Source of the DNA: Gammaproteobacteria bacterium
Lineage (GTDB): Bacteria; Pseudomonadota; Gammaproteobacteria; S012-40
Direction: 5' to 3'
Assembly (NCBI GenBank): GCA_029884425.1
Contig: JAOUHV010000029.1
Location: 1-36,305 of the forward strand
Length of the DNA stretch: 36,305 bases
Position 1 is the stretch's first letter. Every line of letters begins with the position of its first letter. The notes beneath the pieces were generated by a model that worked only from the letters and a program-made list of their open reading frames with translations, was not told where the DNA came from and made no database searches. Below, piece by piece: positions 430-11,758 of the stretch. Made by a program: the position numbers and the translations under genes.

Positions 430-1887
430 ATGCCTCAAATTATTAATACCAATATGATGTCTTTGAACTCCCAGCGTAATCTGAATAAATCTCAGAGCAC
501 ACTGGGTACTTCCTTGCAGCGTTTGTCTTCTGGTTTGCGCATCAACAGCGCCAAAGATGACGCGGCAGGTTTGGCGATTTCTGAGCGTTTCACTTCCCAG
601 ATTCGTGGTCTGACCGTTGCTGCGCGTAACGCCAACGACGGTATTTCACTGTCTCAGGTAGCTGAAGGCGCTTTGCAAGAAGCAGGTAACATCCTGCAGC
701 GTGTGCGTGAGCTGGCTGTACAGTCTGCTAACGCCACTAACTCCAACTCTGATCGTCAAGCACTGCAGGCTGAGGTGTCTCAGCTGAGCGCAGAATTGAA
801 TCGTATCGCAAAAACTACTGAGTTTAACGGTACCAAACTGCTTGATGGTAGCAACACAACTTCTTTGTTCCAGGTTGGCGCGAATGCTAACCAAGTAATT
901 GTGGCTACAACTAACAACTTCAAAACTGACCAGTATGGTAACTACCAGATCTCTGGCTTTGGTTCCAGTGTTGGTTCTGTAAGTCGCTATTCGGTAAACT
1001 CTGCGGTGTTTGTATCTGGCTCTGAAGGTACCAGCAACGTGGTTGTTACCGCTGGTGATAGCGCTAAAGTCATTGCGCAAAACGTCAATCTGGTGAAAGA
1101 CGATACCGGTGTTACTGCAACTGCAATCACCGAAACCAAGCTGTCTTTCACTTCTGCAGGTTCGTATCAGTTGACGATTCAATCTGATAACGTGACTGCA
1201 AAGACTATCGGCTTCAGCCTGAACGCTATGACTGGTGTTGAGTCTTTGTCTGCCGCAGTAACAGCCTTTAATGACCATTCTGCTACCACAGGTGTTGTGG
1301 CTACTGTTGACGCTGATGGTAAGGGTATTACACTGACCAACTATGAAGGCACAAACATTACCGTAACTGATACAACATTTGCTAACTCAGGTGGCGTGGT
1401 TGTTACCTCGACTGATCCAACCACTCCCGGTTCGGTAACACTGGCAGCTAACTCTCTCGCAGAGACTGCCGTGACTACTGGTCAGGTAACTTTCAACTCC
1501 AACAAGTCGTTTACTGCAGTGGGTGGTGCGAGCCAGCAGGTACTGACGTTGGTTGCTCAGGCATCTTCTCTGAACGAAGTTGGTTTGATGGATATCAGCT
1601 CTGTAGAGGGTGCTAACGAAGCTCTGGTCACCGTAGATGCGGCCCTAGCTCAGGTAAGCTCTCAGCGTGCGAAGTTCGGTGCGTTGCAATCTCGATTCGA
1701 AGCAACCATCCGCAACCTTGAGACCAGCGTTGAGAACTTGAGTGGTGCACGTTCGCGGATCCGTGACGCCGACTTTGCGGTTGAAACCTCAGAGTTGACA
1801 CGTTCACAGATTCTGCAACAAGCTGGTACTGCGATGTTGGCCCAGGCCAACCAGATACCACAAAACGTGTTGAGTTTGCTTAGATAA
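430..1887 (+). CDS. fliC: Flagellin, filament subunit
   Basis: The 485-residue product begins with the conserved flagellin D0/D1 region ([20 protein letters not shown], then [19 protein letters not shown] near residues 32-51) and ends with the matching C-terminal helix ([25 protein letters not shown] at the end). The central part, about residues 180-390, is rich in Thr, Ser, Val and Asn and corresponds to the variable, surface-exposed D2/D3 domains, which are the usual sites of glycosylation. It is exported through the flagellar type III system and polymerises under the FliD cap. A GAGGAG ribosome site precedes the ATG by eight bases. It is the only flagellin gene in the window. A sigma-28 promoter lies upstream and a strong terminator follows. 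Confidence 0.97.
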
Positions 1888-1900
1888 TTAAAAAATAATA

Positions 1901-1938
1901 AGAGGGGGGGGGAGGCCTGTGGCCTCTCCCCCTTTTTT
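1901..1938 (+). terminator. Intrinsic terminator after fliC
   Basis: A G-rich left arm (nine G residues in a row at 1904-1912, then AGGCC) pairs with GGCCTCTCCCCC at 1921-1932 with a single G-U pair and a short loop, followed by six T residues. The very long GC stem should end most flagellin transcripts before flaG. Confidence 0.92.
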
Positions 1939-1959
1939 ACGTAAAGGATGGGTGCAGGT

Positions 1960-2352
1960 ATGGCTAACGAAATTAAATTACAGCAGGCCGTGTTGTTGAA
2001 AACGCCCCAGGCAAGTTCATCAACGACGGCAGCGAATCATCAGCCCTCGGTGAATATGGACGCTAAACCAGTGGTTCAGGACACGATGGTCAAGTCGAAT
2101 CCGACAGACGCGCAAGACAAGCAGAAGCAAGCTGCTGTCCTGGAAGAGTCGGTGGCGAGGATGGCAGATTATGCACGTTCCCAGAAACTGAATCTGGAAT
2201 TCAGTATTGAAGAGGTTACTGGTCAAACCTTAGTGAAGGTTATCGATCAGGAAACCGATACAGTAATACGCCAGATTCCTTCTGAAGAAGCGGTTGCATT
2301 GGCCAAGCGTCTAAAAGACAGCCAGGGCGGGATATTCCAGGAAATAGCATAA
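1960..2352 (+). CDS. flaG: FlaG-family protein
   Basis: The 130-residue product has a variable, Gln/Lys/Ser-rich first half and a conserved C-terminal half containing LEFSIEEVTGQTLVKVIDQE, then TDTVIRQIPSEEAVALAKRL, the signature of FlaG proteins found between fliC and fliD in polar flagella. FlaG influences filament length in Pseudomonas and Vibrio relatives by an unclear mechanism. I prefer the ATG at 1960 because the AAGGA at 1944-1948 has usable spacing to it; the in-frame ATG at 1948 would have the ribosome site directly against it. It lies just after the fliC terminator and no clear promoter of its own is seen, so read-through from fliC is likely. Confidence 0.85.
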   Translation: MANEIKLQQAVLLKTPQASSSTTAANHQPSVNMDAKPVVQDTMVKSNPTDAQDKQKQAAVLEESVARMADYARSQKLNLEFSIEEVTGQTLVKVIDQETDTVIRQIPSEEAVALAKRLKDSQGGIFQEIA

Positions 2353-2369
2353 TTGGCATCTACATTGCT
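2353..2369 (+). promoter_or_regulatory. Sigma-54 promoter of fliD
   Basis: TTGGCATC at 2353-2360 and TTGCT at 2365-2369 match the sigma-54 consensus TGGCACG-N4-TTGCW. The invariant GG and GC dinucleotides are separated by exactly ten bases. It starts at the last base or next after the flaG stop and lies about 95 bases before fliD, consistent with FleQ-dependent expression of fliD in polar flagellar systems. Confidence 0.8.
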
Positions 2370-2464
2370 GAGATATTAGGTAGCAATGAGTGGGAATTTG
2401 AAATAAAGACGGATTTACGCGCAGCAATGGTGCGGTCAATCGGTCTGAGTAGAGGTGACTGATT

Positions 2465-4852
2465 ATGGGTATTTCATCTGTTGGCGTAGGTTCGGGGATC
2501 GATGTAGGTGGTTTGGTTGATAGACTAATTTCTGCTGAAGGCGCGCCTAAAACCAATCGCTACAATCGTAAGGAAGCTGATATTCAGGCGAAGTTGACTT
2601 CGTTGGGTACACTGAAAGGTGCGTTGTCCGATTTTCAGATGTCTTTCAGTGCGCTTAAATACGCATCATCATTTACCTCTATCAAAGCATCGTCATCGCA
2701 AAGTGCGATTTTCAGCGCCTCTGCCGCCAAGGGTGCCGCAGTAGGAAATTATTCGCTTGAAGTATCCAAGCTGGCTCAGGCCCACTCTGTGGCCACCAAA
2801 GCCGGCACTGGGTTAACCAGTCTTGGCAGTCAAATTGGTACAGGCAGCATCACCATCGATTTTGGCACCTGGGATAATGCCGCTGCGCCGCCGACGTTCA
2901 CTGCGAACCCAAGCAAAACTGCAAAAACGATAAATATTACCGACGGCAGTATCTCCGGAATCCGCGATGCGATTAATAAAGCCAATGTCGGCGTTAACGC
3001 GAACATTATCTATGACGGCAGTAATTACCGTTTGAGCTTGACCTCCAGCACCGGGGCTGCCAATGCAATGCGCATCAGCACCGTGGACAATGATGGCAAT
3101 AATACCGATTCCTCTGGCCTTTCCATGCTGGCGTTTGACAAAGATACCGGCAGCGCTGGTTTTGCAATGAATTTGGATGAAAACACGCTGGCGCAAGATG
3201 CGGAAATTGCGATTGATGGACTGATCGTTCATAGCGCAACCAACGTTGTTACCGACGTGATCAAAGATGTGACGATCAACCTGAAAAGTGCTCAGGTGGG
3301 TACCAAGGGTGTGTTATCTGTTGCGGCTGATACCACCGCAATTACTTCGGGTGTGCAAAAATTCGTTGACTCATTTAATGGCTTGGTCGGCACGCTAAAA
3401 CAGCTGTCATTTTATAATGCGGAAACAGGTGATCGAGGCGTGTTTTTGGGCGACTCGGCGGTGCGCAATATCGAAAGCGGTATTCGCCGAATTATGGGGC
3501 AAGCATTCGGTTCGCAGACAGGTGCCTACAATTCGTTGGCGAGCTTGGGTATTACCACCCAGCGTGATGGTTCATTGCAGCTTGATTCTGCCAAACTTGA
3601 TAAGGCGCTGAGTGCAAATCTGGAAGATGTGCGAATGGTTTTTGCCGGGGGATATTCAAAACCCGGCGGTTCTAGTGTGAGTTACAACAAATTACCTTCG
3701 GGCATGGATGCGGGATCGATTCCAATCAATATTACCCAGGCGGCAACCCAGGGCACGTACGTTGCCGATGTATTAGCCAACAGTACGATTAGTGCGGGTA
3801 ATGACAGTTTTGTTTTGAACGTTAACGGTGTTGCCACGGGAACGATTACTGTCGCAGCCGGAGTATATAGCGGTTCAACACTGGCGACTGAAATTCAGAC
3901 CCAGCTCAATGCAGATTCCGTTGGCAAAGATGTGTTAGTTAGCTATAACGCTTCCACCAATAAATTGGAGTTCACCAATAAAAACTATGGCAGCACATCT
4001 GCGGTGACAGTGTCATCCACCAGCGGAACATTTGCTGCGGACACTGGTGTGGGTGGCGCTGCGGGTGTGGCAACAGCCGGGAAAGATATTGCCGGAACAT
4101 TGGGTGGTAACTCAACCCAGGGGAATTATATTGCCGCCGCGTTGAGTACCACGACGGTGACTTCAGGTAATAATCAATTTGTGTTGAATGTGAATGGTAG
4201 TAACACTGGCACAATTACCATTCCCGCCAGTGCTTATGCTGATGGTGATGCATTGGCTGCTGCTATCCAGACACGTCTGACAGTCGATTCTGTTGGTAAA
4301 AATGTGAAGGTCAGCTACAACAGCACCAGTAACAAATTGGAGTTTTATTCGACGAGTTTTGGCGCAACCTCTAATGTCACCGTGGTTTCCACCACCGGAA
4401 CGCTGGCCGCAGATATTGGCTTGGGCGGTGCCGGTGGAGTTTCAACTCAGGGGCAAGGGTTGGCAGGAACTACGTTTGCGGCTACGGGGGCGGGACAGGT
4501 TTTGACCGGTAGCGGCACGTATGCTGGTGTGGAAATTCAGTACACCGGCACGAGTTCTGTCTATGTGCGCGCGACAACACCGCATGTCGGAGTCATTAAA
4601 GAATTGAACAAGTTCCTTGATGATGCATTGCTAACGAATGGCACGCTAAATGCTAAAACTAAGTCATATCGATCCCAGATTGACGACATTAATGAGGATC
4701 GGAAGACATTGTCTACTCGCCTTGAATCAATGCAGGCGAGTCTGTTAAAGAAATTTGGAGCGATGGATTCGTTGGTAGCTCAGCTAAATGGTACCAGTAC
4801 GTATCTATCCGGTCAGTTTCAGCAACTGGCGAACTTGAATAAACAGAGATAA
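2465..4852 (+). CDS. fliD: Flagellar filament cap protein FliD, enlarged
   Basis: The start (MGISSVGVGSGIDVGGLVDR) is the typical FliD N-terminus and residues about 690-795 carry the conserved C-terminal helical region (LNKFLDDALLTNGTLNAKTK and GQFQQLANLN at the end). FliD forms the cap that guides flagellin assembly at the filament tip, exported with the FliT chaperone. At 795 residues it is longer than many homologues (commonly about 450-680). The excess is explained by a tandem duplication of a roughly 123-residue module at about residues 428-550 and 551-669, each with a flagellin-hook-IN-like pattern (FVLNVNG, then TGTIT, VGK, VSYN, NKLEF). A GAGGTGA ribosome site precedes the ATG. Confidence 0.95.
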   Translation: MGISSVGVGSGIDVGGLVDRLISAEGAPKTNRYNRKEADIQAKLTSLGTLKGALSDFQMSFSALKYASSFTSIKASSSQSAIFSASAAKGAAVGNYSLEVSKLAQAHSVATKAGTGLTSLGSQIGTGSITIDFGTWDNAAAPPTFTANPSKTAKTINITDGSISGIRDAINKANVGVNANIIYDGSNYRLSLTSSTGAANAMRISTVDNDGNNTDSSGLSMLAFDKDTGSAGFAMNLDENTLAQDAEIAIDGLIVHSATNVVTDVIKDVTINLKSAQVGTKGVLSVAADTTAITSGVQKFVDSFNGLVGTLKQLSFYNAETGDRGVFLGDSAVRNIESGIRRIMGQAFGSQTGAYNSLASLGITTQRDGSLQLDSAKLDKALSANLEDVRMVFAGGYSKPGGSSVSYNKLPSGMDAGSIPINITQAATQGTYVADVLANSTISAGNDSFVLNVNGVATGTITVAAGVYSGSTLATEIQTQLNADSVGKDVLVSYNASTNKLEFTNKNYGSTSAVTVSSTSGTFAADTGVGGAAGVATAGKDIAGTLGGNSTQGNYIAAALSTTTVTSGNNQFVLNVNGSNTGTITIPASAYADGDALAAAIQTRLTVDSVGKNVKVSYNSTSNKLEFYSTSFGATSNVTVVSTTGTLAADIGLGGAGGVSTQGQGLAGTTFAATGAGQVLTGSGTYAGVEIQYTGTSSVYVRATTPHVGVIKELNKFLDDALLTNGTLNAKTKSYRSQIDDINEDRKTLSTRLESMQASLLKKFGAMDSLVAQLNGTSTYLSGQFQQLANLNKQR
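3746..4471 (+). repeat. Tandem duplication inside fliD
   Basis: Two consecutive in-frame copies begin at 3746 and 4115, a period of about 369 bases. Shared protein landmarks are TQGxY, FVLNVNG, TGTIT, DSVGKxVxVSYN, SNKLEF or TNKLEF, FAADTGVGG or LAADIGLGG, and AGT at the end. The DNA has diverged clearly more than the protein pattern, so this is an old duplication and not an assembly artefact. Confidence 0.85.
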
Positions 4853-4913
4853 CAGTCTGTTATCGGCATCCTGATCGTTGCCGTAAAACTGTATCGTATA
4901 GAGGAGAGGTTGC

Positions 4914-5345
4914 ATGAATCCTGTAAATGCGCAAAATGCGCTCAAACAGTACGGCAAGATGAGCGCCAAGCTGGATGCTACAGAAGTTAGCTCTCATCGT
5001 TTGATCCAAATGCTCATGGAGGGTGCTCTGGATAAGATCGCCATTGCCAAGGGACATATGACGCGCAAAGAAATCAAGGAAAAAGGCAGTTATATTAGCT
5101 GGTCTATTTCCATCATCGAAGGCTTGCGCGCCAGTTTGGACTTTGAAAAAGGTGGCGAGATAGCAGCTAATCTTGAAGCGCTGTATGACTATATGCAGCG
5201 ACGCCTGGTTGAGGCCAATTTGCAAAACGATGTTGCCATGCTGGATGAAGTGGCAGGGTTGTTGAAAAATATTAAAACGGCCTGGGATGAAGTCGGACAG
5301 GCGCAAAGCGGCAAGCCGACTGATAATCCTGTGGCGACAGAGTAA
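4914..5345 (+). CDS. fliS: Flagellin export chaperone FliS
   Basis: This 143-residue, mostly helical protein has the FliS hallmarks: N-terminal MNPVNAQNALKQYGK, the LIQMLMEGALDKIAIAKGHM helix, SIIEGLRASLDFEKGGEIA and a LYDYMQRRLVEANLQND segment. FliS binds the C-terminal helix of flagellin in the cytoplasm and prevents early polymerisation. GAGGAGAGG lies just before the ATG. It follows fliD by about 60 bases and precedes the fliT-like gene by six, so the three are probably co-transcribed from the fliD sigma-54 promoter. Confidence 0.95.
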   Translation: MNPVNAQNALKQYGKMSAKLDATEVSSHRLIQMLMEGALDKIAIAKGHMTRKEIKEKGSYISWSISIIEGLRASLDFEKGGEIAANLEALYDYMQRRLVEANLQNDVAMLDEVAGLLKNIKTAWDEVGQAQSGKPTDNPVATE

Positions 5346-5351
5346 ACCGGC

Positions 5352-5675
5352 ATGAATGATGACAAGCTAGTGTGCGTGTATTGTGATGTCATGCAGCAGG
5401 TGCTGGTGTTGACACAATCCATGCTTGAGCATGCAACGCAGGATGAGTGGGACAAAGTTGCCTTGCTTGAGATTGAACGCGTAACGCTGTTGCAAAATCA
5501 CGGTGATCTACCCTCCGAACCTGAAACAATATCTCATGCGGCGGATTTGGTTAGCCAGATACAGGCTACAAATTTGCTGATTGTCGATTTGGGTAATAAA
5601 CAAATCAAATCGCTGTCGGCGCAAAGTCAAGACATTGGTCGTGGTCGCCAGGCCGTGGCTGCCTACGGTCGTTAA
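5352..5675 (+). CDS. fliT: FliT-like flagellar chaperone
   Basis: A 107-residue, helical, charged protein placed directly after fliS, the standard position of FliT, the chaperone for the cap protein FliD. The central WDKVALLEIERVTLLQ pattern resembles the FliT helix in which a Trp-containing stretch precedes an E-x-x-R-x-x-L-L register. Sequence conservation in this family is low, so the name depends mostly on position and length. Its stop codon overlaps the stop of the converging glycosyltransferase gene by four bases (TTAA, 5672-5675), leaving no room for a terminator between them. Confidence 0.75.
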   Translation: MNDDKLVCVYCDVMQQVLVLTQSMLEHATQDEWDKVALLEIERVTLLQNHGDLPSEPETISHAADLVSQIQATNLLIVDLGNKQIKSLSAQSQDIGRGRQAVAAYGR

Positions 5676-7534
5676 TCCTCTTTTGCTTTTATCATTTCCT
5701 CGTATGTATTCTCCAATGCGGATGTAAAACCTTTGGCGTTCATCAAAGGGCTGTTCTGCATTTGTTGGCGTAATGTTTGACGTATGGCTGTCAGCTTTGT
5801 GCTGTCTTTTGCCAAGGTCGAGGCAATGGTCAGGTACTGGTTTTCATCCGTGGCCACCAATTCCCCAAGTCCAACCTGATGTAGCAGGCTGAAGCCTACG
5901 CGTGAGCAGTGTCTATCCCCCGCTAACGTAATCACAGGTACGCCCATCCACAGTGCTTCACAGGTGGTAGTTGTGCCATTGTAGGGAAAGGTATCCAGCG
6001 CAATATCCATTTGCCCGTAGGTTTCCAGATGTTCGGCGGTGGATGAGGTATGTCCCTGCAAAATCAATCGATCATCGTTGACATGATGTTCGGCAAAGGC
6101 ATGGGTCAGTGATTCACGCATGATGGTGTCATGAAACGCAGAGGACTTCAGCAACAGGCGGCTGTGTGGAACTGTATTCAGCAGTTGCGCCCATTGGTGG
6201 ATTTGTCTGCGGGAGATTTTGGCAGTGTTGTTAAATGTGCCAAAGGTAATATACCCATTCTGCAAAAATGGGGGAGGCGAGACGTCAGGGAAATCGCCGG
6301 GCGGTTGATAGCAGAGAAATCCTTGCGGCAATCTCACCAGTGTTTCGCTGGCGTGCAATGGTGCTGATGTCGGATCAGTCCACTCATCCACCAGACGATA
6401 ATCCATGCGTGTCAGACCGGTAGTGTCCGGATAGCCCAGGTAGTTGACCTGGATTGGCGCCGGCTTGCGCGCCAGTAACGGAATGCGGTTGTTGGCGGTG
6501 TGTCCACCCAAGTCGACTAAAATATCGATGCCATCTTCAGCAATCAACTGCGCAACTTTATCATCATCCAGTTGTGCAATAGGACGCCAGTGCTCCACGC
6601 GCTGACGGATTTTTTCGCTCACAGTATCGTCTTTGCCGTGATTGGCATAGGCAAAAATTTCCATGCGGCTTCGATCATGCTGTTCAAGGATGGGAAGAAT
6701 GAAATACGCCACAGAATGGGTGCGAAAATCTGCCGAGAGATAGGCGATGCGCAACCTCCGTCCCCGTGCATCTATCTGCCGACTGGGAAATTGCTTGGCC
6801 ATTTCAAAGTGGGCTGACAATTGCTGATGCCGCTGAAATATTTCGTCGGCAGAGATGGCTTCCAGGTAATGTAAATTCATTAACAAGCCACAGCGTGCGC
6901 TGTTTAAGTTTTGATTGTTAGCGAGTGCCTGGCTGTAAAGCGCATGGGCCTTTCCGGCCTCACCGCGTCGCTGATAAACCAGGGCCAGATTGTTCATGGC
7001 ATCGGCATTGGTTGGTACGCGCTGCAGGATTTCGAGATATAACTGTTCGGCCAAACCCAGTTGTCCCTTGTCTTTGTGCAAATTGGCCAGATTGTTTTTT
7101 GCTTCCAGACAATTGGGGTCCAGGGTCAGGGCGTGGCGAAATAAATTTTCTGCTTGCTGTATGTCGTGCAGACGCTGATAGCAGCTGGCCAGATTGTTGA
7201 AACTCATGGCGTGCTGTGGTTGCAGTGTGCTGCTTTTTTTATAGGCCGCCATGGCCTCGTTGATTTCCATCAGCGCCTGATGCACGACGCCCAGGTTGAA
7301 CCACAGTTCACCGTCATTGGGGCTTTGCTGTTTGGCGCGCAGCATTAGTTTGAGTGCCTGACGCGAATCTCCCGTCTGGTGTTTTAACAAACCAAGGTAG
7401 TGCAGAGTGTCAGGATGCGATGGAATGTATTGCAGGATTTTTTTATATTGCTGTTCAGCCTGCTGCCATTGTCCGGCCTGATGCAGCTGTATGGCTTGTT
7501 GAAAATAGGATGCGAGTTGTTGATGTGTGGCCAT
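5672..7534 (-). CDS. TPR-containing O-GlcNAc-transferase-like glycosyltransferase (GT41 type)
   Basis: Residues about 1-225 form some six tetratricopeptide repeats (for example PDTLHYLGLLKHQTGDSRQA and NADAMNNLALVYQRRGEAGK). Residues about 255-610 match the GT41/SPINDLY catalytic region: LRIAYLSADFRTHSVAYFI, ILVDLGGHTANNRIPLLARK, PIQVNYLGYPDTTGL, ITFGTFNNTAKISRRQIHQW, and LDTFPYNGTTTTCEALWMGV followed by PVITLAGDRHCSRVGFSLL. Such enzymes transfer a sugar from a UDP-sugar to Ser/Thr; the TPRs recognise the protein substrate. The gene is 30 bases downstream of the TPR sulfotransferase and converges on the flagellin operon, so flagellin is the inferred substrate. No signal peptide is seen; cytoplasmic action before export is expected. 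The sugar donor cannot be told. Confidence 0.9.
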   Translation of the reverse strand: MATHQQLASYFQQAIQLHQAGQWQQAEQQYKKILQYIPSHPDTLHYLGLLKHQTGDSRQALKLMLRAKQQSPNDGELWFNLGVVHQALMEINEAMAAYKKSSTLQPQHAMSFNNLASCYQRLHDIQQAENLFRHALTLDPNCLEAKNNLANLHKDKGQLGLAEQLYLEILQRVPTNADAMNNLALVYQRRGEAGKAHALYSQALANNQNLNSARCGLLMNLHYLEAISADEIFQRHQQLSAHFEMAKQFPSRQIDARGRRLRIAYLSADFRTHSVAYFILPILEQHDRSRMEIFAYANHGKDDTVSEKIRQRVEHWRPIAQLDDDKVAQLIAEDGIDILVDLGGHTANNRIPLLARKPAPIQVNYLGYPDTTGLTRMDYRLVDEWTDPTSAPLHASETLVRLPQGFLCYQPPGDFPDVSPPPFLQNGYITFGTFNNTAKISRRQIHQWAQLLNTVPHSRLLLKSSAFHDTIMRESLTHAFAEHHVNDDRLILQGHTSSTAEHLETYGQMDIALDTFPYNGTTTTCEALWMGVPVITLAGDRHCSRVGFSLLHQVGLGELVATDENQYLTIASTLAKDSTKLTAIRQTLRQQMQNSPLMNAKGFTSALENTYEEMIKAKED

Positions 7535-7564
7535 GGCAGTGTGGCTGCAAGCCAGGTGCCAGGA

Positions 7565-9052
7565 CTACTTCCTCAGATGCATTAACGGCTGGAGGTGTTT
7601 TTCATAATGACGCCATCTAGCGACCGAGCGTTTGTAGACAGGTTGTCTGGCTTGCCAACTGCTGGCGGTGGAAACACGGCGCAATTGGCGGTGATAGTCC
7701 AGGCAGTTGCTTTCCCAGTCGAGTTCAAGGAACTGAATAAGCTTCCTGCTTTCCAATTCGGTGTCGCCGACCAGATTTTCATACTCTACGGTGTATATGG
7801 TGTTTGGCAGATGCTGCTGCCAGTGCTGTTGTAATTTTTGGTATTGCTCATAGACACTCGCCAGTGAGTTTAAATCAGCGGCATAGGCATGTTGTTCATT
7901 GAAGTTTTGGAAATAACACGATAGGCAGGTATCTACAGGGTCCCGTTTTACATGAATAATGCGAGCCTTTGGGAATACTAGGGTTATTAAGCCAAGATGC
8001 AGAAAATTAAGCGGTGCCTTGTCGATAAAAATTTCAGCAGATGGCGCAAGCTGGTTTATGTTGTGGATGTAGTTCCTGGCGATTTGATAGCTCAGATTCC
8101 GATCAAATTGGGCGTAGGCTTCCCTGAGGCTCGACGTTCCTGTGATGCGAGGAATGGCTGCGGCAATGGTATTGAAATAATCCAGCTCGCCAGCGCCGTA
8201 GATCTTGGAGTGGCTGGAAAGTATTTGTTCTACCAGGGTGGTACCCGAGCGTGGTATGCCGACAATAAAAGTTGGGCGTCGATCACTGTTGCCAAAGTAG
8301 CGATGGTGCTCAAAAAAATCTTTGCTGAAAGTGGCACACAAGTCATCAATGAAACCGCGAAATGTGTCAGGGTCAAAATAGGCCGGGCTGTGCAAATTGG
8401 CTTGTCGGTAATGCTCAAAGGCAATGTCGTATTTTTTCAAATCATCAAAAATTTTTCCCAAAGCAAAGTGCAGCTTGGATGTCTCGCTTTGGCTTAATTG
8501 ATTTTGTTTAAGCAATCCTTGTATGCGAACTATGTCATCATTTTCTTCATGGTAACGGATACTTCGCGACAGATTGAAATAGGTTTCTGCCCGTCTGGGA
8601 TCGTATTTTAAGGCAGTGCGAAATTGTTTGGCCGCTTCTTCTTGCAGACCGCATTCTTGCAGAATGACGCCCAAATTATTATAGGCTTGGGGGAAATTGG
8701 GTTGCAGCGTTGTTGCACGATGGTAGTGTTTGATGGCCGATTCGCGATGGCCGAGTTGTTGTTGGGTGAGTGCCAGATTGTAATGCAGGGCCGCATCGTC
8801 CGGGGTGCCAGTCAGGGCAATTTCGAACAGTTCGCAGGCGTGGCTGAGCTGGTTTTGCTCTCGTTCAATCAGTCCCAGATAGTGGGCTGCCTGGGGATGG
8901 CTGGGATTCATCTGCAGAATGAGTTCGTATATTTTACGGGCGTCATCAAGCCGATGCTGGCGATGGGCGTCAATGCCCTTTTGCAGCAGTTGATTTAAGT
9001 GCGATGGATCATGGGGCATCCCCCCGTTGCCATGCGGTTGTTGTGTCATCAT
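7565..9052 (-). CDS. TPR-containing sulfotransferase
   Basis: The 495-residue protein has tetratricopeptide repeats at about residues 15-165 and a sulfotransferase domain at about 258-480. The PAPS 5'-phosphosulfate loop is visible as FIVGIPRSGTTLVEQILSSH (residues 262-281), and the 3'-phosphate motif as RIIHVKRDPVDTCLSCYFQN around residue 380, with the expected Arg and Ser. It should move sulfate from PAPS to a hydroxyl on a protein or glycan. It precedes the OGT-like gene by 30 bases on the same strand. The start at 9052 (ATG ATG) has no clear ribosome site; an in-frame ATG at 9016 is an alternative. A candidate sigma-28 promoter lies about 28 bases upstream of the start. Substrate is unknown; sulfation of glycosylated flagellin is inferred from context only. 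Confidence 0.88.
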   Translation of the reverse strand: MMTQQPHGNGGMPHDPSHLNQLLQKGIDAHRQHRLDDARKIYELILQMNPSHPQAAHYLGLIEREQNQLSHACELFEIALTGTPDDAALHYNLALTQQQLGHRESAIKHYHRATTLQPNFPQAYNNLGVILQECGLQEEAAKQFRTALKYDPRRAETYFNLSRSIRYHEENDDIVRIQGLLKQNQLSQSETSKLHFALGKIFDDLKKYDIAFEHYRQANLHSPAYFDPDTFRGFIDDLCATFSKDFFEHHRYFGNSDRRPTFIVGIPRSGTTLVEQILSSHSKIYGAGELDYFNTIAAAIPRITGTSSLREAYAQFDRNLSYQIARNYIHNINQLAPSAEIFIDKAPLNFLHLGLITLVFPKARIIHVKRDPVDTCLSCYFQNFNEQHAYAADLNSLASVYEQYQKLQQHWQQHLPNTIYTVEYENLVGDTELESRKLIQFLELDWESNCLDYHRQLRRVSTASSWQARQPVYKRSVARWRHYEKHLQPLMHLRK

Positions 9053-9079
9053 GATAAAACGCCCAAACGATATAGGCGG

Positions 9080-9107
9080 TTAACGGCAGGGGGCTGATTT
9101 TGCTTTA
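9080..9107 (-). promoter_or_regulatory. Candidate sigma-28 promoter for the TPR sulfotransferase/glycosyltransferase pair
   Basis: Read on the minus strand, TAAA at 9107-9104 is followed after 16 bases by GCCGTTAA at 9087-9080. The FliA consensus is TAAA-N15-GCCGATAA, so the -10 box matches 7 of 8 and the spacer is one base longer than ideal. Transcription would begin near 9074, about 21 bases before the sulfotransferase start codon. The -35 box shares its bases with the T-run of the upstream terminator. A mapped 5' end is needed to confirm it. Confidence 0.5.
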
Positions 9108-9173: not shown

Positions 9174-9770
9174 TTAGTAGCCGGACAACCAGCCGTTGCG
9201 ACCCAAAATCATCCCCATGGAAATCAGGGCTTCGTTGCAATGGCGGGCTGGCAACGCAGATTGCAGGCGCTGGGTCATGGCCTCAAACGGAGAGGGCGTG
9301 TCTTTCCTAAAAATGGACTCAATGCAGAACAGTTGAACGGCCAAGTGGACGTGCTCTTCTATGCTGGGTGGCAGTTCTTCGGCACGGGCCAGTAGTGTCT
9401 GGTAAATTTCCTTCCACTCAGCGGTTAAATCGTACTGCCAGTTCCACTCCTGGAACATCAGCGGCAGATTAAGCATCTCGTAGGGGAAGGCGGATGCGGG
9501 ATATTTCTTGATGAGATGCTTGACGGCGTTGAGCCAAATCAGACCAACCAGGTAAAAGTTCTGTGGCTGTTTGCTGATGTGCTCCAAGATTTCCGGTTCG
9601 GTAAATTCCACCAATGCAAATGTGATTTCTTGCGGGGTTTCCAGGTGGGCCATCAACAGGGCGGTGAATTGCACCAACTCCAGGGGATCGTCCTCGTTGA
9701 TGCTGAATCGAACGGGAACCAAGTTTTGGAATGCGTTGCTCTCTTCTTGGGTGAATTTAGCGGTCATCAT
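9174..9770 (-). CDS. Unrecognised 198-residue protein
   Basis: I do not recognise this family. The product is acidic to neutral, has no signal peptide or membrane span, and looks all-helical with many aromatic residues (LPLMFQEWNWQYDLTAEWKE near the middle, QNFYLVGLIWLNAVKHLIKK before it). The start has an AGGAA ribosome site four to five bases before ATG ATG at 9770. Codon use and composition resemble the flanking genes, and it sits on the same strand as the two TPR enzymes but is separated from them by a terminator. Between flagellin modification genes and fleQ a flagella-related or substrate-synthesis role is possible, but nothing in the sequence shows it. Confidence 0.75.
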   Translation of the reverse strand: MMTAKFTQEESNAFQNLVPVRFSINEDDPLELVQFTALLMAHLETPQEITFALVEFTEPEILEHISKQPQNFYLVGLIWLNAVKHLIKKYPASAFPYEMLNLPLMFQEWNWQYDLTAEWKEIYQTLLARAEELPPSIEEHVHLAVQLFCIESIFRKDTPSPFEAMTQRLQSALPARHCNEALISMGMILGRNGWLSGY

Positions 9771-10016: not shown

Positions 10017-10110
10017 TAGTGAACAGAAATAGAGCCATCGTGCAGACGGTGGCCGTTCCGGCAAAACCTGGCCGTATACACCGAACTTTCAACTTACGAT
10101 GAGGGAGAGT

Positions 10111-11649
10111 ATGTCGCGAAATAATGAGACTTCCATTTTAGTGGTCGAGGACGACAGTCAGAAGCGACAAGTATATAAAGGTATTCTGGAATTTGCGGAC
10201 CAGGAGGCGAGAATCACGGATTGCCGCCACTGGAAAGAGACGTTGACGCAGTCCAACAACATCGGTGTAGTTTTACTCGGTGAATGTGGTGATGACGCCA
10301 CGACACGCAAAGTATTTAACGGTATTCGCGAACTTGACGAAGTGTTGCCGATCATTCGTCTGGCGGACAAAAACAAGCGTATTCCGAAGAATATGTCCGA
10401 AGAGGAGATGAGTCTGCAGGCTGAGTGCTTTGAAACGCTGACGGTTCCGCTGAAGTACAATGCGCTGAATGATACTCTGCATCGTGCTCTGGTTTATCGC
10501 GCCAGCAACACCGAAGGTGCGCAGACAGCTTCCTCTCCTGAGTTGTTCCGCAGCCTGGTGGGCAGCAGCCGTGCAGTGCGCACCATTCGTGACTTGATGA
10601 CTCAGGTGGCGGACTCTGATGCCACTGTGCTGATTCTGGGTGAATCAGGAACGGGTAAAGAAGTGGTTGCGCGTAATCTGCATTACAACTCATCCCGTCG
10701 AAACAAGCCTTTCGTGCCAGTGAACTGTGGTGCGATTCCCTCGGACCTGCTGGAAAGTGAACTGTTTGGCCATGAAAAAGGCGCGTTCACCGGTGCAATC
10801 AATGCGCGCGAAGGTCGCTTTGAGCTGGCCGAAGGCGGTACGCTGTTTTTGGACGAAATCGGCGACATGAGCCTGCACATGCAGGTTAAATTGTTGCGCG
10901 TGTTGCAGGAGCGTACGTTTGAACGCGTGGGCAGCAACAAGAGCATGGTGGCCGACGTGCGCATCGTGGCTGCAACCCACCGTAATCTGGAGCGTTTGAT
11001 CGAGGATGGCAAATTCCGTGAGGATTTGTACTACCGCCTGAACGTGTTCCCCATCGAGATGCCGCCCTTGCGCGAGCGTTTGGAAGATATTCCTTTGCTG
11101 ATCAATGAGCTGATTACGCGTATGGAAGCGGAAAAGCGTGGCTCGGTGCGTTTGACCCCTGCGGCGGTGATGGCGTTGACCCAATACCGCTGGCCGGGCA
11201 ACGTGCGTGAACTGGCTAACCTGATTGAGCGCCTGGTTATCATGCATCCGTACGGCGTGGTGGACGTGAACGACCTGCCTGAAAAATTTCGCCCGGTGAG
11301 CAAAGTCGTTGTGCCGTTGGATGATATTGACATGGATCTGGATGACGACGAGGTGATCGAGCGGGTGCAGTTGAGAAATCTGCCGCGCACCCCGGAATCG
11401 GATTTGCTGAACGAGCTGAAAGAGTCGCTGTTTGCCCAGCCGCTGTCTTCGCCGCGTTTGCCACGTGAAGGTCTGGATCTGAAAGAGCACCTGAGTTCGT
11501 TGGAGTACAACCTGATCAAACAGGCGTTGGAAGATGCCGATGGCGTGGTGGCACATGCGGCCAAGCGGCTGAAAATGCGTCGTACCACCCTGGTTGAAAA
11601 GTTGCGCAAGTATGGCTTGCAGCGGGCGCTGGATGAGTCAAGAGTTTGA
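10111..11649 (+). CDS. fleQ: Flagellar master sigma-54 activator (FleQ/FlrA type)
   Basis: A 512-residue enhancer-binding protein with an N-terminal receiver-like domain (about 1-125), an AAA+ domain with Walker A GESGTGKE (from residue 177), the sigma-54 contact loop GAFTGA (about 224-229) and Walker B GGTLFLDEIGD, and a C-terminal Fis-type helix-turn-helix (AAKRLKMRRTTLVEKLRKYG). The receiver lacks the phosphorylated Asp (VVLLGECGDD where D is expected), as in FleQ/FlrA. LFRSLVG at 145-151 matches the c-di-GMP-contacting LFRS motif of Pseudomonas FleQ. It should switch on sigma-54 flagellar promoters such as those seen before fliD, flrB and fliK. The ATG at 10111 follows GAGGGAGA; the in-frame ATG at 10099 overlaps that ribosome site and is less likely. 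Confidence 0.93.
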   Translation: MSRNNETSILVVEDDSQKRQVYKGILEFADQEARITDCRHWKETLTQSNNIGVVLLGECGDDATTRKVFNGIRELDEVLPIIRLADKNKRIPKNMSEEEMSLQAECFETLTVPLKYNALNDTLHRALVYRASNTEGAQTASSPELFRSLVGSSRAVRTIRDLMTQVADSDATVLILGESGTGKEVVARNLHYNSSRRNKPFVPVNCGAIPSDLLESELFGHEKGAFTGAINAREGRFELAEGGTLFLDEIGDMSLHMQVKLLRVLQERTFERVGSNKSMVADVRIVAATHRNLERLIEDGKFREDLYYRLNVFPIEMPPLRERLEDIPLLINELITRMEAEKRGSVRLTPAAVMALTQYRWPGNVRELANLIERLVIMHPYGVVDVNDLPEKFRPVSKVVVPLDDIDMDLDDDEVIERVQLRNLPRTPESDLLNELKESLFAQPLSSPRLPREGLDLKEHLSSLEYNLIKQALEDADGVVAHAAKRLKMRRTTLVEKLRKYGLQRALDESRV

Positions 11650-11701
11650 CTTGTTTCGTGCTTTGCGATGTAACTATTTGAAATAAAAAGATTTAAAGTC
11701 C

Positions 11702-11717
11702 TGGCGTAAATATTGCT
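11702..11717 (+). promoter_or_regulatory. Sigma-54 promoter of flrBC
   Basis: TGGCGTA at 11702-11708 and TTGCT at 11713-11717 carry GG and GC exactly ten bases apart, as required for sigma-54. The -24 box departs from TGGCACG at two or three positions. It lies 42 bases before the GTG start of the kinase gene, the place where FleQ/FlrA-dependent activation of the two-component genes is known in Pseudomonas and Vibrio. Confidence 0.7.
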
Positions 11718-11758
11718 CGGGGCTGTGTTATTGAAAACCTACCCTTGCGGAGCAATGC

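Follow-up and report, generated by a model that had tools for sequence, protein, structure and literature searches.

A TPR-sulfotransferase gene beside the flagellin operon in a gammaproteobacterial family: a candidate system for flagellin sulfation

Sugars as well as methyl, acetyl and formyl groups are known decorations of flagellin. In Caulobacter crescentus, pseudaminic acid is added to the flagellins by FlmG, the TPR domain of which suffices for direct binding to them (PMC7591256). The flagellin glycosylation islands of Enterobacteriaceae are variable and contain SPINDLY-type GT41 enzymes, sugar genes and enzymes that add methyl, acetyl or formyl decorations (PMC4875605). As for sulfate, swimming filaments carrying it were encountered, in the literature found, in an archaeon only. 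There, the sulfotransferases Agl30 and Agl31 of Halobacterium salinarum place sulfate on a glycan of surface and swimming-filament proteins (PMC11980604). No report of a sulfated bacterial flagellin or of a bacterial flagellin sulfotransferase was found in the literature searched, most subscription journals lying outside that search. Among sulfotransferases acting on proteins, the TPSTs are Golgi enzymes devoid of TPRs. Bacterial RaxST belongs to the raxX-raxSTAB cluster and has the RaxX peptide as its substrate (PMC6637879).

Here, we describe a gammaproteobacterial locus where a sulfotransferase and a GT41 glycosyltransferase, each bearing a TPR array, adjoin the flagellin operon. The window, that is the whole stretch of DNA analysed, is 36,305 nucleotides long. 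This kind of island and both kinds of enzyme have precedents; what is new to us is how they are combined, that the place is conserved and how they are probably regulated. We estimate the probability that flagellin is sulfated in some form at roughly 0.7.

Gene order and candidate promoter

The plus strand of the window carries fliC (430..1887), encoding a flagellin of 485 residues (Pfam Flagellin_N and Flagellin_C) that is the presumed acceptor. Next come flaG (1948..2352; Pfam FlaG), the filament cap gene fliD (2465..4852; Pfam FliD_N and FliD_C), the flagellin chaperone gene fliS (4914..5345; Pfam FliS, TIGR00208) and a fliT-like chaperone gene (5352..5675; Pfam FliT). Tail-to-tail with this series (430-5675, +) stand two minus-strand genes. 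The upstream one encodes a TPR-sulfotransferase of 495 residues (7565..9052), with Pfam TPR_2 followed by Sulfotransfer_3 (E 1.3e-44). The other, 30 bp downstream, encodes a predicted protein O-glycosyltransferase of 620 residues, a TPR-GT41 of the SPINDLY/OGT type (5672..7534) where Glyco_transf_41 (E 2.6e-62) lies behind the TPRs. The stop codons of the fliT and GT41 genes share 4 bp (5672-5675). A first-pass annotation had recognized both TPR-bearing enzymes, their short spacing and their tail-to-tail position with respect to the flagellin/cap operon, and the Pfam assignments bear out this description. Farther upstream on the minus strand is ORF198 (9174..9770), 198 residues long and matched by no Pfam or NCBIfam family. 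At its other end, the island is bordered by a fleQ-type master regulator gene (10099..11649, +; Pfam FleQ and Sigma54_activat), after which two-component genes that read as fleS/fleR type follow on the plus strand.

Between ORF198 and the sulfotransferase gene, a rho-independent terminator (9130-9113, −), made of a 7-pair GC stem and then CTTTTT, stops just ahead of a candidate sigma-28 (FliA) promoter, TAAAG-N15-GCCGTTAA (9107-9080, −). Because the terminator, which separates the two, is followed by this box, the sulfotransferase and GT41 genes look like a separate transcription unit that starts with the sulfotransferase gene. The box spans 55 to 28 bases upstream of the start codon and matches the FliA consensus, TAAAG-N15-GCCGATAA, at 12 of 13 bases. 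No other site with at most one mismatch occurs in the window, and 500 shuffles of the 300 bp ahead of the sulfotransferase gene gave no score as high. FliA is encoded in the genome. The motif is not enriched genome-wide (6 sites at one mismatch versus 5 for a reversed control pattern). Since these counts are nearly equal, the box is credible thanks to its position and not to the motif alone.

In the family to which the window belongs, boxes above chance precede the homologues of G008 (p 0.008) and G005 (p 0.03), that of G005 sitting very near the start codon. Those of G010 (p 0.056) and G004 (p 0.12) are weak, and no sigma-28-like box was found upstream of the G011 homologue (p 0.66). The combined p of 7e-5 leans on the box of the window itself. 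The sigma-28 promoter originally proposed ahead of the pair thus withstands the shuffling and stays a candidate. Besides, two FliA/WhiG-type sigma factors score above the curated cut-off in the genome (G000:C33:14865-15521, −; G000:C7:22375-23034, +), so that a second sigma-28-like regulon may exist.

Features of the two enzymes

The AlphaFold2 model of the TPR-sulfotransferase (mean pLDDT 92.5) comprises a TPR superhelix (residues 16-220, approximately) and a PAPS-sulfotransferase domain (about 255-495), for which the Sulfotransfer_3 profile gives 153.5 bits against a cut-off of 27. In VIA-align comparisons of this predicted model, residues 255-495 superimpose on TPST1 (5wri) with a Z of 22.0 and an rmsd of 2.9 over 238 aligned residues. 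Among the structural matches listed, the only solved sulfotransferases are TPST1, TPST2 and a tick TPST (Z 21.6-22.0, rmsd 2.8-3.1, about 238 aligned), and the best sequence match is also human TPST1 (E 2.6e-6). For the TPR part, the matches are consensus TPR proteins (CTPR), MamA and OGT. A PAPS loop, GIPRSGTTLVEQ, occupies residues 265-276, and R370 with S378 forms the 3′-phosphate motif. Arg268 of the P-loop, Glu289, Lys345, Arg370 and Ser378 are invariant in the six full-length proteins of the family and kept in at least 231 of 245 relatives. They align with R78, E99, K158, R183 and S191 of TPST2. Arg101 and Arg105 of TPST2, which presumably read acidic residues around the target tyrosine, are not kept, the aligned residues being Asp291 and Thr295.

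Sequence and model therefore describe a putative PAPS-dependent sulfotransferase that, because the counterparts of these two arginines are absent, is filed as having a TPST-like fold and not as a TPST. With TPST1, TPST2 and RaxST, it shares the catalytic fold (Z 22), the catalytic glutamate and lysine and the PAPS loops. Unlike the TPSTs, it has a TPR array and lacks the two arginines to which recognition of acidic sites is attributed. Regarding the supply of PAPS, an APS kinase domain is encoded in the genome (E 1e-61). G001 and G002, which have a weak partial APS kinase match only, are likewise without the sulfotransferase; in G004 (80% complete), which carries the sulfotransferase, no APS kinase match was found. 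A second, merely distant sulfotransferase match in the window's genome (C4:50515; 23.6% identity, E 4e-5) lies among non-flagellar genes and was set aside.

The GT41 protein (PF13844, 211 bits against a cut-off of 25) has SPINDLY as its best solved relative (E 1e-129, versus 6e-89 for human OGT). The SPINDLY residues H495, S496, N661, K665, H728, Y744 and T748, reported as essential or in contact with the donor (PMC9715652), are kept as H273, S274, N435, K439, H502, Y518 and T522. As Tyr744 of SPINDLY has been argued to leave no space for UDP-GlcNAc (PMC9715652), GlcNAc is an unlikely donor for the GT41 of the window, by analogy. The genome encodes a complete pseudaminic-acid pathway (PseI, H, G, F, C and B at G000:C2:1282-7243, all above NCBIfam cut-offs) as well as gmd, and GDP-fucose, CMP-pseudaminic acid and other sugars are possible donors. 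A second GT41 is encoded on contig C36.

Compared with SPINDLY and OGT, the GT41 of the window is bacterial and has a shorter TPR array. On the basis of domain layout and gene content, FlmG would be its best model. In both, the glycosyltransferase domain (GT-B in FlmG) comes after a TPR array and the genome has a pse pathway, and the cytoplasmic modification of flagellin carried out by FlmG is likewise proposed here. FlmG differs in that no sulfotransferase partner is described for it (the string 'sulf' occurs 0 times in PMC7591256), whereas the GT41 of the window sits in the fliT-fleQ interval beside one.

Flagellar position across the family and beyond

The family of the window, which is also its order here, comprises 13 genomes, G000 being that of the window. 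Matches to the sulfotransferase domain at E < 1e-30 were found at 8 places. Seven of them adjoin fliC-flaG-fliD-fliS, tail-to-tail with fliS/fliT, in six genera (G000, G010, G004, G008, G005, G011 and G009). All but one of the 13 genomes carry fliS, and in 7 of these 12 the sulfotransferase occupies the flagellin locus; the family search, in which some genomes are incomplete, found fliS and no sulfotransferase in G001, G002, G003, G006 and G007.

The class survey covered 370 genomes at E < 1e-40. A TPR-sulfotransferase homologue was present in 79 of them, and fliC and fliD were near it in 2 of the 100 surrounding stretches examined (L058 of G190 and L081 of G115); in both genomes, the gene is placed between flgL and fliC. 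The difference between 7/8 and 2/100 is significant by Fisher's exact test (p 1e-8), the loci being partly dependent with several per genome. In a scan of named genomes from many phyla, which may leave out the genome of the window and those near it, 77 of 79 loci had no flagellin genes nearby. In one alphaproteobacterial MAG (L218), a tandem of two TPR-sulfotransferase genes immediately precedes fliC-fliD-fliS; in a Phycisphaerae MAG (L201), a weak match to flagellin lies at the edge of the stretch.

The link of the sulfotransferase with flagellin is therefore real, yet lineage-specific, considering 7/8 in the family against 2/100 across the class. As most class homologues lie away from flagella, flagellin is not the substrate of the whole enzyme family, which is a general one that several lineages seem to have put to flagellar use. 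According to the first-pass annotation, finding the pair mostly away from flagellar genes in relatives would speak against a flagellar function. For the sulfotransferase, the family goes the opposite way and the class goes this way, and the pair itself is linked to flagellin in G010 only, besides the window.

The history of the family enzymes was examined with a tree of 62 sulfotransferases, including the six full-length ones of the family. Five of these fall in one clade (support 87/76, not significant), where the enzymes of the window and of G010 pair firmly (99/91). The G011 enzyme lies outside on a long branch, and grouping all six enzymes in a single clade is not rejected (p-AU 0.389). 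With full-length identities of 29-48% within the family, either one old acquisition followed by fast divergence or two recruitments to the same site would fit the data.

The order fliS - GT41 - sulfotransferase - ORF198 - fleQ is repeated as a whole in G010 only, within the family. In five other genomes, the sulfotransferase gene at the flagellin locus lies directly against fliS/fliT with no GT41 adjoining. The pair as such is thus weakly conserved, and for the two-step scheme first put forward, an obligate coupling to this GT41 is not supported. Outside flagellar loci, a GT41 lies within the examined flank of 18 of 179 sulfotransferase loci, a raw count without baseline. Likeness between the TPR arrays was dropped as support for shared recognition, the TPR part of the sulfotransferase ranking that of the GT41 of the window 15th out of 252 sequences.

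The contents of the fliT-fleQ interval mark it as a variable flagellin-modification island in this family. The G008 island has pseB/pseC/pseF-like genes and a second, TPR-free sulfotransferase, a Sulfotransfer_3 protein of 289 residues (L017 6500-7369, +) near the pse genes and the flagellin locus. Genes that read as CDP-sugar-type are found in G004. In G005, as many as six additional TPR ORFs occur: six consecutive TPR-like ORFs stand between the sulfotransferase gene and fleQ in L160 (3-10520), one of which (2546-4645) matches TPR families only in Pfam, so that any C-terminal catalytic domain in it would be of an undescribed kind; L156 has three. In G010, further GT41 ORFs, one of 1331 residues, lie upstream of its two fliC genes (L161 3035-9041; L243 2799-5389), and PseG/PseI genes are on the fliC contig as well, about 17 kb upstream of that gene. 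G007, the flagellins of which have 276-288 residues and no D2/D3, has neither island nor sulfotransferase; its seven short flagellin genes stand in a row (L157 12562-19520). Like the islands of Enterobacteriaceae, those of this family are variable blocks close to fliC with SPINDLY-type GT41, sugar genes and decorating enzymes. The former occupy a fliDC/AZ position, with no sulfation enzyme mentioned ('sulf' 0 times in PMC4875605), whereas the latter lie between fliT and fleQ.

ORF198 has homologues in G010, G005, G003, G009 and G002, beside flagellar genes or on their contig, and is on this basis a candidate for a new flagellin-modification factor. Proteins of this type occur in six family genomes, including that of the window, and the rest of the 370 class genomes gave only two very weak matches. 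Homologue sites are L015 around 11151-11750 (−), L019 17639-18178 (−), L156 10761-11315 (+), L023 around 10982-11410 and G002:C63:2319-2816.

Proposed mechanism and alternative acceptors

The flagellar role initially advanced is supported by the position next to fliC-fliD-fliS in the family and by the sigma-28-like box. In the mechanism that we propose, the unit at 9107-5672 (−) would be a late flagellar operon within a modification island bounded by fliT and fleQ, and FliA would switch on flagellin and this unit together. While still in the cytoplasm, flagellin would be held before its export by the TPR array of each enzyme, as has been shown for the FlmG TPR domain in Caulobacter. The GT41 would O-glycosylate serines or threonines in the exposed, variable D2/D3 region of flagellin, with pseudaminic acid or a deoxyhexose, for instance fucose, as the donor sugar. 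The sulfotransferase would move sulfate from PAPS to flagellin, either to the glycan or to a protein hydroxyl, and this would precede FliS-aided export. Sulfate on the glycan of a filament protein, one of the two readings proposed here, is what Agl30 and Agl31 bring about. These differ in being other enzymes acting on an archaeal N-glycan, for which the abstract describes no TPR guidance (PMC11980604).

Between glycan and protein as the sulfate acceptor, the choice is close to even. Direct sulfation of tyrosine competes seriously with glycan sulfation because the catalytic domain is closest to TPSTs, the five active-site residues included. The sulfotransferase would then act on tyrosine, or on serine or threonine, of flagellin independently of the GT41, with the glycan as a separate modification. 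The five family genomes where no GT41 adjoins it are consistent with this idea, as is the presence of Tyr169 and Tyr172 in nearly all long flagellins of the family. However, the flagellin tyrosines are equally conserved in relatives without the sulfotransferase, so that they are not decisive as a marker of sulfation. Moreover, Asp291 and Thr295 replace the two arginines of TPST2, the islands of the GT41-free relatives still carry other TPR ORFs and sugar-pathway genes, and a common fold shows no acceptor. Direct sulfation, which overlaps with the main explanation, can accordingly be held only tentatively. Its fuller form would have a cytoplasmic, TPR-guided enzyme of TPST fold, under the control of the flagellar regulon and recruited several times across lineages, sulfate the flagellin protein in parallel to O-glycosylation; this we regard as slightly more speculative.

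Alternatively, the sulfotransferase would modify another surface molecule, such as an exopolysaccharide, LPS or a further filament protein, for instance FliD, and would have only regulation or neighbourhood in common with flagellin. The enzyme family does have other acceptors, given that 98 of the 100 class loci and nearly all those of named genomes are without flagellin genes. For the enzymes considered here, such an acceptor is rather unlikely: a single flagellin-adjacent position is held in seven genomes of the family, separate flagellar positions are seen in other lineages, and a sigma-28-like box is present. Finally, chance insertion of a mobile island at a permissive site, with no flagellar role for the pair, might account for the strong variation in contents between relatives, but is very improbable, as one enzyme type holds one position across the family despite its divergence, behind a promoter-like box, and as GC content gives no signal of horizontal origin (0.48-0.50 in these genes, 0.49 in fliC and fliD).

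Returning to sulfation of flagellin, a sulfate ester would, if the proposal is true, give the surface of the filament a fixed negative charge, with possible effects on its stability in salt, on adhesion, on contact with phages and on recognition by receptors. We know of no substrate of TPR-sulfotransferases, widespread as these are in the class. Those of flagellar loci offer an abundant and purifiable candidate acceptor, and the function of the whole TPR-sulfotransferase family thereby becomes testable.
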